In this document: positions 26,325-27,623 of the stretch, piece by piece
Layout: each line of letters starts with the position of its first letter
Numbering within the stretch: position 1 is the stretch's first letter
DNA from: Candidatus Gastranaerophilales bacterium
GTDB lineage: Bacteria > Cyanobacteriota > Vampirovibrionia > Gastranaerophilales > Gastranaerophilaceae
DNA length: 33,406 nucleotides
Direction of reading: 5' to 3'
NCBI GenBank assembly: GCA_944324445.1
Contig: CALUWL010000014.1
Location: 1-33,406, forward strand
Notes under the pieces: generated by a model
The model's input: only the letters and a program-made list of their open reading frames with translations
Told to the model about the DNA's origin: nothing
Database searches by the model: none
Translations under genes and position numbers: made by a program

Positions 26325-26353
26325 TTGATATTTGTTTTTGTGCGTTGTAGAAT
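26325..26353 (+). promoter_or_regulatory. Predicted tRNA-Arg promoter
   Basis: TTGATA (26325-26330), a 17-bp spacer and TAGAAT (26348-26353), each one mismatch from consensus. Transcription would start near 26360, the exact point where the 31-nt repeat begins, 13 nt before the truncated tRNA copy. Confidence 0.6.
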
Positions 26354-26359
26354 TGAGTT

Positions 26360-26390
26360 AAACTGAATATTTGCGCTTGTAGCTCAGCTG
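26360..26390 (+). repeat. Direct repeat, copy 1, with truncated tRNA-Arg 5' end
   Basis: This 31-nt sequence is identical to 26593-26623. It holds 13 nt of leader and the first 18 nt of tRNA-Arg (acceptor strand and D-arm up to AGCTG), then diverges, so the copy is not a functional tRNA. Confidence 0.9.
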
Positions 26391-26592
26391 AATGCGAAGC
26401 CGGTGCGATAATCGATAAGGCGATGAGCCTTAGCGATGGAGCAGTCGATGAGCGATGCACACAATCCGTTAGCGAAGTAATGAGCTTTACGGATTGGAAA
26501 CACCCTTGGGGTGCGTGGTATAATTGAACAAACGAACGACAGCGTTAGCGATAGTGAGATTTGTGAAATGCCTACGGAGCTATAAGTATAAA
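26391..26592 (+). repeat. Structured insert between the tRNA-Arg repeats
   Basis: This 202-nt segment is visibly richer in G and C than its surroundings. The heptamer TTAGCGA occurs at 26430, 26469 and 26545 (intervals 39 and 76), each followed by a GAG-containing stretch. Perfect stems are AAGGC/GCCTT (26417-26431), CAATCCGT/ACGGATTG (26462-26496) and CACCC/GGGTG (26501-26513). An extended -10 element TG-G-TATAAT (26516-26524) may form a second promoter for the intact tRNA. No protein is convincingly encoded. It may be a small mobile or palindromic repeat unit. Confidence 0.65.
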
Positions 26593-26623
26593 AAACTGAA
26601 TATTTGCGCTTGTAGCTCAGCTG
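26593..26623 (+). repeat. Direct repeat, copy 2, at the intact tRNA-Arg
   Basis: The second 31-nt copy, continuing directly into the complete tRNA-Arg. The distance between copies is 233 nt. Confidence 0.9.
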
Positions 26624-26679
26624 GATAGAGTGTTTGGCTACGAACCAAAAGGTCGGGGGTTCGAATCCCTCCAAGCGCG
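26606..26679 (+). tRNA. tRNA-Arg (anticodon ACG)
   Basis: A 74-nt cloverleaf: acceptor GCGCTTG/CAAGCGC, D stem GCTC/GAGT with one G-U pair, anticodon stem TTTGG/CCAAA around CTACGAA, and T stem GGGGG/CCCTC with loop TTCGAAT. The anticodon ACG (read as ICG after deamination) decodes CGN arginine codons. CCA is not encoded; the discriminator is G. A 16-bp terminator hairpin follows at once. Confidence 0.96.
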
Positions 26680-26719
26680 TATTAAAAAAAGAAGCTGAAT
26701 AATGCTTCTTTTTTTAATA
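26680..26719 (+). terminator. Terminator of tRNA-Arg
   Basis: A 16-bp perfect stem, TATTAAAAAAAGAAGC (26680-26695) against GCTTCTTTTTTTAATA (26704-26719), with an 8-nt loop. The U-rich right arm supplies the tract. Confidence 0.85.
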
Positions 26720-26779
26720 CAATGTTTATTAGGATGTAATTGTTTTACTTCTGCCTTTTTTAAAAACTTACTTATGGGG

Positions 26780-26808
26780 TTGACTTTTTGATAGAGTATA
26801 TTTATAAA
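26780..26808 (+). promoter_or_regulatory. Near-consensus promoter facing the XRE genes in antisense
   Basis: TTGACT (26780-26785), a 17-bp spacer and TATAAA (26803-26808), each one base from consensus. The start would be near 26815, just before the end of the minus-strand regulators. No plus-strand gene follows until the HAD fragment at 27538. Confidence 0.45.
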
Positions 26809-26819
26809 ATTTAAAAAAT

Positions 26820-27029
26820 TTACTTTAACAACAAATAAGCTTTTGTTTCAAAGTAATTAGCTAGTATTTCAATTTTATCTAAAGTAATATTTATTTTACA
26901 TTTTTCAAGTTTTGAAACATAAGAATTATCAACTCCTAAAATTAAAGACAATTCTTCTCTGCTTAACTTTTTCTGTGTTCGCAGATTTTTAACATTATTT
27001 GCTAATATTTGTCTAATATCTTGACTCAT
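26820..27029 (-). CDS. Small XRE-family regulator, third in tandem
   Basis: A 69-residue protein made almost entirely of a Cro/CI-type helix-turn-helix: KKLSREELSLILGVDNSYVSKLE is the HTH core, followed by LDKIEILANYF. It lacks a ligand or dimerisation domain. The ATG start (MSQDIRQ) was preferred to an upstream TTG that would overlap the preceding gene. It follows the second regulator by 4 nt and is the most divergent of the three. Confidence 0.82.
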   Translation of the reverse strand: MSQDIRQILANNVKNLRTQKKLSREELSLILGVDNSYVSKLEKCKINITLDKIEILANYFETKAYLLLK

Positions 27030-27033
27030 AATA

Positions 27034-27249
27034 TTAATCTTTAAAATCAAACAAATTCTTAACTTCAAGTTCTAAATTATCAGCTATAATTTTTAACTTA
27101 GTAACTGTAACATCGGTCTTTGCAAGTTCAAGCAAACTAATCATCGATCCTGATACACCATTTATGCCAAGGTCATCTTGTGTTAATTTTCTTTCTTCTT
27201 TTAGATGCTTTAATCTTTTTGCTAATTTTTCTAAAAAGGACTTGCTCAT
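27034..27249 (-). CDS. Small XRE-family regulator, second in tandem
   Basis: A 71-residue HTH-only protein. KLTQDDLGINGVSGSMISLLE is a Cro/CI HTH, with DVTVTKLKIIADNLELEV as the following helix. It shares KLAxRxKxL, TQDDL and xAxxDVTxxKLxxIA with the first regulator, so the two are clear paralogues. It starts 17 nt after that gene and has no obvious Shine-Dalgarno sequence. The C terminus LFDFKD is a short tail. Confidence 0.85.
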   Translation of the reverse strand: MSKSFLEKLAKRLKHLKEERKLTQDDLGINGVSGSMISLLELAKTDVTVTKLKIIADNLELEVKNLFDFKD

Positions 27250-27266: not shown

Positions 27267-27479
27267 CTAAAAATTTAAAAATTCAGCTAATGTTAAATTA
27301 AAAGCTTTTGCTATTTTGTTTAATTTAGAAAAGGTTACATCATTTTGAGCGGTTTCAATATTTCCTAAAGTAGAACGTGCAATTTGGGCTAAATCCGCTA
27401 AATCATCTTGAGTATATTTATGTAATTTCCTCAACTCTTTTATACGGTTTGCTAGTTTTTGTAATAAAACCTTGTCCAT
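27267..27479 (-). CDS. Small XRE-family regulator, first in tandem
   Basis: A 70-residue HTH-only protein: YTQDDLADLAQIARSTLGNIE is a textbook Cro/CI helix-turn-helix, followed by DVTFSKLNKIAKAFNLTL. The start is the ATG giving MDKVLLQ; the longer reading frame upstream runs through the promoter. It leads the three-gene cluster, and its promoter lies in a palindromic divergent control region, which suggests that one or more of these proteins repress their own transcription. No phage gene or integrase is nearby. Confidence 0.87.
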   Translation of the reverse strand: MDKVLLQKLANRIKELRKLHKYTQDDLADLAQIARSTLGNIETAQNDVTFSKLNKIAKAFNLTLAEFLNF

Positions 27480-27530
27480 AATAAAATTGTCCGCTATAAT
27501 GACAATATAAACAAACTGTGAGGCGGACAA
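27472..27530. promoter_or_regulatory. Divergent promoters and operator of the XRE cluster
   Basis: Plus strand: TTGTCC (27472-27477), 17 bp, TATAAT (27495-27500). Minus strand: TTGTCC (27530-27525), 17 bp, TATTGT (27507-27502). An 8-bp inverted repeat TTGTCCGC (27487-27494)/GCGGACAA (27523-27530) brackets the plus-strand -10 and contains the minus-strand -35. The hexamer TTGTCC occurs twice directly and once inverted in 59 bp. Confidence 0.6.
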
Positions 27531-27537
27531 AATAAAT

Positions 27538-27623
27538 ATGTACACAAAAAAATACTTATAGATTTAGACGGCGTATTGAATGAATACGGGAAAGAAAACG
27601 TGGTTTTTAAAGATATAACCTAA
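27538..27623 (+). pseudogene. Truncated HAD-family phosphatase fragment
   Basis: The frame from 27552 reads ILIDLDGVLNEYGKENVVF and stops at TAA (27621-27623). DxDGVL is the catalytic motif I of HAD hydrolases, which normally continue for 150 or more residues. The ATG at 27538 is out of frame with it, separated by a run of seven A (27546-27552); one more A would join them. It is therefore broken both by a frameshift and by loss of the rest of the gene, although it keeps a good promoter divergent from the XRE cluster. Confidence 0.65.

Follow-up and report, generated by a model that had tools for sequence, protein, structure and literature searches.

tRNA genes belong to the most highly conserved loci, and partial tRNAs next to them are usually interpreted as scars of integration. 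Several described systems resemble the arrangement that we report here. REP/BIME repeats, which are mobilised by RAYT (Y1) transposases, are mosaics of small palindromes, as are the inserts described below. Rickettsia palindromic elements (RPE) are a short, dispersed palindromic family that also occurs in functional RNA genes. In tandem tRNA duplicates and pseudo-tRNAs, extra decayed copies adjoin the functional gene. Integrative elements are associated with tRNA fragments in which a partial tRNA copy lies beside an intact one (PMC9897764). Template switching during replication is a known maker of inverted copies in RNA genes, and such mutations create perfect stems (PMC8794818). We found no report of the present arrangement in Gastranaerophilales among open-licence papers.

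The window, that is, the whole stretch of DNA that was analysed (33,406 nucleotides), is contig C14 in the 96-contig, 1.8-Mb assembly of a Candidatus Gastranaerophilales bacterium (G000). This genome and those compared with it (the other G numbers) appear to be MAGs. Features are on the plus strand unless otherwise stated. The near-consensus promoter TTGATA-17-TAGAAT proposed by the first-pass annotation was found by a consensus scan at 26325-26353, and it is present in congeners at both filled and empty orthologous tRNA-Arg loci. It is followed by a tRNA leader (AAACTGAATATTT, 26360-26372) and a truncated tRNA-Arg copy, designated X, which is an exact repeat of tRNA nucleotides 1-18 and breaks off in the D-loop (26373-26390). 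After an insert of 202 nt (26391-26592), the leader recurs as an exact direct repeat at 26593-26605 and abuts the 5' end of an intact tRNA-Arg(ACG) at 26606-26679 (Rfam RF00005, 68.6 bits; ARAGORN gives 26605-26680), which is the sole ACG gene among the tRNA genes examined in this genome. The 31 nt at 26360-26390 and 26593-26623 are identical, as first annotated, and the match extends to 33 of 34 nt over 26360-26393, with a spacing of 233 bp. An intrinsic terminator of the tRNA-Arg, consisting of a 17-bp stem and then a T run, is located at 26679-26720.

On the basis of its relatives and of its fold compared with shuffled sequences, the insert was divided into a type-E mosaic hairpin module, a closing strand (X') and a short A-rich spacer. 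The three TTAGCGA heptamers noted in the first pass start at 26430, 26469 and 26545, and the stems reappear in the RNA fold as three predicted hairpins: TAAGGC/GCCTTA (26416-26432), CAATCCGT/ACGGATTG (26462-26496), and CACCC/GGGTG (26501-26513). The closing strand (GAGCTATAAGT, 26577-26587) is predicted in both the minimum-energy and the centroid folds to pair with GCTTGTAGCTC in the truncated copy (26375-26385), which would close the whole unit; a unit from a congener has the same closing stem. The 233-nt unit has a more stable fold than 200 of 200 shuffled sequences (z -4.0). An Rfam scan of the insert gave nothing significant except the tRNA. Because the promoter lies before the unit and the intact gene after it, transcription would yield an RNA that contains, in the order originally suggested, a fragment of the tRNA 5' end, the folded spacer and the complete tRNA. 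The internal TATAAT (26519-26524) is probably accidental and not a real promoter, because most other copies of the insert have GGATAAT instead.

On the 3' side, the region 26732-26789 shows weak similarity to a downstream unit of G001 (local alignment score 31; best of 500 shuffles, 27), and thus the tRNA-Arg is probably flanked by units on both sides, with the 3' one decayed to a relic. A 96-aa ORF (MEGFEPPTFWF...) on the minus strand at 26384-26674, antisense to the tRNA and the insert, resembles the spurious reading frames that are commonly seen opposite tRNA genes. Further downstream of the tRNA, two small ORFs at 26820-27068 and 27267-27545 (minus strand) have a helix-turn-helix (Xre-like) look.

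When the insert was searched against its own and related genomes, a check that the first-pass annotation had proposed, it proved to be a member of a repeat family with dispersed copies. One of these, on contig C11 of the window's own genome, matches it with 89% identity over 251 nt; it lies upstream of tRNA-Arg(TCT), which is preceded by the arrangement twice (inserts of about 200 and 61 nt). Partial relatives are present on C16, C17 and C66. In the named genome collection, the pattern matched 7 contigs, all from Candidatus Gastranaerophilales MAGs; viral contigs (pattern search) and phage and plasmid collections gave no match. We then surveyed tRNA genes by direct-repeat detection, with unit boundaries taken from exact-seed repeats. 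Upstream partial tRNA copies were present at 8 of 30 surveyed tRNA genes in G000, 10 of 27 in G020, 4 of 20 in G024, 3 of 22 in G010, and 2 of 28 in G007. In the case of G023, the single tRNA examined has an upstream copy, and in G013 the automatic test detected none, although two identical units lie at a contig end (L041). Thus, six congeners carry units, G013 on the upstream side only at a contig end. Units are arranged in tandem in G000, G020, G013, G024 and G010. No upstream copy was found at the 63 tRNA genes surveyed in two outgroup genera or in the shuffled flanks used as a control. Downstream copies, which comprise the tRNA 3' end and the terminator, numbered 3 in G000, 7 in G020, 2 in G010, 2 in G013, 1 in G007, 1 in G024, and 3 in the outgroup genome G045.

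All of these counts are lower bounds with partial tRNA coverage in every surveyed genome, because many tRNA genes of G000 lie near contig ends and because the scan missed a unit with a diverged X (the G000 tRNA-Lys unit, spotted by eye). They also describe a non-random sample of the genus, as the genomes were partly picked for a unit at tRNA-Arg. Up to about one-third of the surveyed tRNA genes per genome have 5'-end duplications, often sealed by antisense and filled with modules. As the window repeat is one of dozens, it represents a genus-wide way, in these uncultured gut bacteria, of remodelling essential RNA genes and not a single accident. The suggestion of a tandem-duplication accident therefore survives in part: duplication is half of the explanation that we prefer (see below), but the event is not a one-off, the window unit being 1 of 36 tabulated upstream units in six genomes.

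MAGs invite the suspicion that such repeats are assembly artefacts, the more so as 15 of 36 tRNA genes in G000 lie less than 500 nt from a contig end (1.9 expected, P ~2e-10). This enrichment, however, is the effect expected of repeats near tRNAs. Units also occur in the interior of long contigs, as they do in the window, in one of 716 kb from G007 and, mid-contig, in G020; they come from separate assemblies and have species-specific sequences, and the tRNA-Arg(TCT) units of G000 and G020 are nearly identical; an artefact is therefore extremely improbable. Contig breaks beside tRNAs bear on MAG quality, and the units themselves bear on tRNA annotation.

The comparison of orthologous sites in relatives, also proposed earlier, revealed that the arrangement is not universal. 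An upstream unit is absent from tRNA-Arg(ACG) in G001, G003, G013, G022, G009, G024, G019 and G021, and the site is filled, differently in each case, in G000, G020, G023 and G010. At tRNA-Lys, G000 and G024 have a unit and G007 and G020 have none, with similar promoters in front. No one-step gain of a unit was caught between near-identical strains. Some units, namely those of tRNA-Asn and tRNA-Lys, retain recognisable inserts across species, the Lys insert being recognisably the same in G000 and G024, and this retention could reflect selection. As units come and go, a conserved essential role is unlikely.

The units share a common order, namely leader, X, modules, X', short A-rich spacer, leader, and intact tRNA. 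All 36 tabulated upstream copies end at tRNA nucleotides 11-21, and they start mostly in the leader; the table excludes copies ending at nucleotide 25 or beyond, of which the surveys had one, at tRNA-Met of G024. Downstream copies mostly begin at tRNA nucleotides 54-68, in the T-arm. The duplication length varies among the tabulated units, and the inserts are 50-400 nt. With two or fewer mismatches, the leader motif TTGAMAATTRAATA precedes 21 of 26 unit-bearing tRNAs and a minority of the others. This motif, which seems similar to the rRNA-operon leader on the boxA side in other bacteria, is found upstream of many tRNAs throughout the genus, also inside tRNA operons.

These boundaries bear on two explanations. 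Integration usually accounts for tRNA fragments that adjoin tRNA genes (PMC9897764), and the 3' units do duplicate the tRNA 3' end with its terminator, so that remnants (attL/attR) of ordinary integrative elements might be considered. Such an element is recognised by a tRNA 3' duplicate at its far end and an integrase; the window, in contrast, duplicates the 5' end, and its 202-nt insert is too small to encode an integrase. Beyond the window, most units likewise duplicate the 5' end, many different tRNAs are hit within one genome, and the structured inserts, which at 50-400 nt are below one kilobase, have hairpin modules in common, carry antisense to the cognate tRNA and do not need an integrase. 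We consider this origin very unlikely.

The other explanation is that an RNA made from the promoter was copied by reverse transcription and then inserted; the first-pass annotation, noting that the duplication starts at the transcription start, had raised copying through an RNA as one possibility. The window repeat does begin at about the expected start, and a reverse transcriptase is encoded in 12 of 28 genomes of the genus, including G000. This coincidence is peculiar to the window, however: the repeats at Leu-tag and Pro-tgg begin well downstream of the promoter, and the 3' units are mirror images of the 5' ones. A search for reverse transcriptase (PF00078) gave no hit in G020, which carries the largest number of units, or in the likewise unit-bearing G007, G010, G024 and G013. 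Neither a start-bounded duplication nor a reverse transcriptase is thus a regular companion of the units; as a general rule, RNA-mediated copying is contradicted, and we give it very little credence.

The inserts contain antisense to their own tRNA. The summed exact antisense match of inserts to nucleotides 1-35 of the cognate tRNA was 204, against 146.7 +/- 7.1 when inserts were permuted among tRNAs, and none of 20,000 permutations was as good; the 25 distinct units in this test include several related ones, and the test was picked after antisense stretches had already been noticed, so it confirms a prior observation. The same-strand control was weak (483 of 20,000 permutations as good). A preceding test of duplex energy between X and the inserts had also been weak (106 of 5,000 permutations as good), and therefore the antisense-match test was used next. 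The signal is carried by a subset of units: Lys (18 nt), Arg (16), Phe (15), Arg-TCT (11), Leu (11 and 10), Pro (10) and Val (9). In the window, the exact antisense match of X' is short (6 nt, and more with wobble pairs). Units are predicted to fold as closed domains. A CRISPR-like repeat-spacer reading was dropped, as the spacers carry antisense to the repeat and shared modules.

The cognate specificity of the antisense would suit a cis-acting leader RNA, in which X' pairs with the truncated X or with the intact D-arm as a switch or brake on the maturation of its own tRNA. Where a promoter is visible, units sit between it and the tRNA, and the Lys insert shared by G000 and G024 points in the same direction. 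In predicted folds, cloverleaf pairing dropped from 0.69 in the tRNA by itself to 0.22 when the unit was present, compared with 0.40 for shuffled upstream DNA, and because the unit lowers this in silico pairing, a cis-acting brake is still conceivable, although equilibrium folds of long precursors are unreliable. Deletion of X in silico, however, had no average effect, orthologous tRNAs often lack a unit, and mirror-image units lie beyond terminators. A general RNA function is disfavoured by the presence or absence of units among species and by their mirror-image forms, and we regard a cis-acting leader as possible but unlikely; if leaders do act in cis, they would be a new kind of tRNA control. 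A variant in which the truncated X shields the tRNA by sequestering X' was rejected on the same X deletion.

Modules M and E were recognised among the hairpin modules of the inserts. Module M consists of ACTCTGCCGA, a variable hairpin, and GAGAGG; its flanks are invariant in 20 sequences while the hairpin changes, the flanks having been part of the search pattern that gathered those sequences. In a similarity search of five genomes, 17 of 17 places with module M were at tRNA-derived ends, some of them at contig ends where the contig stops short of the tRNA itself; the query included a tRNA-Leu end, which biases the search towards tRNAs. ACTCTGCCGA always adjoins the broken tRNA end, and the orientation of the module relative to that end is the same in 5' and 3' units; module M is therefore on the opposite strand in 3' units. 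Such placement is symmetric at the DNA level and asymmetric at the RNA level. A kink-turn reading of module M was discarded because of a spacing misfit and because the module is on opposite strands in 5' and 3' units. Module E, the type present in the window, is GCGAAGCCGGTGCG...CAGGAGC.

As in RPE, several relatives of the insert occur within the same genome and in congeners, and also in RNase P RNA. The units differ from RPE in that the module comes with a truncated copy of the cognate tRNA, with a duplication of its leader or terminator and with antisense to that tRNA, and in that module M was found at tRNA-derived ends only; their tRNA bias is unusually strong. They differ from REP/BIME in their placement at tRNA ends and in lacking the enzyme: 27 of 28 genomes of the genus, including that of the window, have no Y1/RAYT transposase (PF01797).

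The invariant ends of module M around a variable hairpin, its location at tRNA-derived ends in all 17 places found, and the constant position of ACTCTGCCGA beside the break would fit a non-autonomous mobile DNA element for tRNA arms that makes a long target duplication (~30-45 nt). Against this stand the lack of a candidate enzyme, the variable duplication length, the lack of any phage, plasmid or viral-contig match (negatives that apply to the families and collections named here), and the bias of the module M query towards tRNAs; cognate antisense in the insert is also unexpected of a transposon, and the type-E insert in the RNase P RNA of G007 has no clear target duplication (by eye). We consider such an element rather unlikely. 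In its most specific form, the proposal would be that an undescribed, tRNA-specific DNA module (ACTCTGCCGA...GAGAGG with its variable hairpin) inserts at either tRNA end, each time duplicating the gene end with leader or terminator and adding an antisense copy of the arm that it targets; the essential tRNA would thereby be preserved, and a hairpin would seal the broken end. This is a speculative idea that we hold to be improbable but tenable. Should it prove mobile, the module would constitute a new element that targets tRNAs.

Some loci keep recognisable tRNA parts beyond the duplicated end, whereas the window keeps only the 5' end and the complementary closing strand. In G030, from another genus of the same family, a tRNA-Arg copy that lacks the T-arm and retains the pairing of its ends immediately precedes the intact tRNA-Arg(ACG) gene (L050). 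A tRNA-Met copy in G024 has a D-loop hairpin and also lacks the T-arm (L120), and G000 has a full-length pseudo-tRNA-Ile on the downstream side (L076). These intermediates point to tandem duplication followed by decay, and the series from a whole extra copy to a stem remnant offers natural material for the study of domain gain in RNA genes and of template-switch hairpins.

At the sequence level, the loci show direct duplication, restricted break points, shared modules, cognate antisense, empty sites, tandem amplification and intermediates, together with predicted closing stems. The explanation that we prefer, and to which we give about an even chance, is that the units are redundant tandem tRNA copies that were opened by hairpin modules and decayed with the closing stem kept, through DNA-level duplication and template switching. 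In this genus, local duplication would copy the leader and tRNA on the 5' side, or the tRNA and terminator on the 3' side. One copy would be kept intact, and the redundant one would be opened by small hairpin modules in the D-arm (upstream) or the T-arm (downstream) and then shrink to its outer end X and the complementary X' around the modules. Duplication would thus come first, and module insertion and decay later. The direct duplication and the inverted X' may both have arisen by replication template switching or slippage and not by a transposase. The unit would be transcribed yet close to neutral, presumably tolerated because the downstream tRNA is complete and excisable by RNase P.

The same module topology on both sides of the tRNA counts for a DNA-level origin, and the cognate antisense supplies the inverted copy of nearby sequence that marks template switching. 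The hairpin modules in RNase P RNA are a further point in favour of the preferred explanation. Other observations fit duplication and decay less well. The antisense of 15-18 nt in the Lys, Phe and Arg units exceeds the surviving X, and a separate inversion step is therefore needed beyond duplication and decay. The finding of module M at tRNA ends only is more readily reconciled with a tRNA-targeting element than with hairpins inserting generally. The lack of a one-step gain among near-identical strains and the inserts kept across species at tRNA-Asn and tRNA-Lys also count against this explanation. The units are like tandem tRNA duplicates and pseudo-tRNAs in that extra decayed copies adjoin the functional gene, but their interior is swapped for shared hairpin modules and the closing stem is retained. 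They likewise share with template-switch mutations the inverted copies that make perfect stems (PMC8794818), but here a direct duplication and an inserted module accompany them, and numerous tRNAs within a single genus are affected.

Module E relatives also occur in RNase P RNA. One lies within the full-length RF00010 match of G007. In G020, where the contig end interrupts the match, another is close to the 5' end of that match; none was found in the RNase P RNA of G024 or G033. Among congeners, RNase P RNA genes have structured inserts at different peripheral positions, P12-like in G007 (L275) and P3-like in both G020 (L049) and G013 (L276), and such inserts are absent from G024 and G033. In G001, tandem E-related units lie between rplF-like and rplR-like genes in an apparent ribosomal-protein operon (L057).
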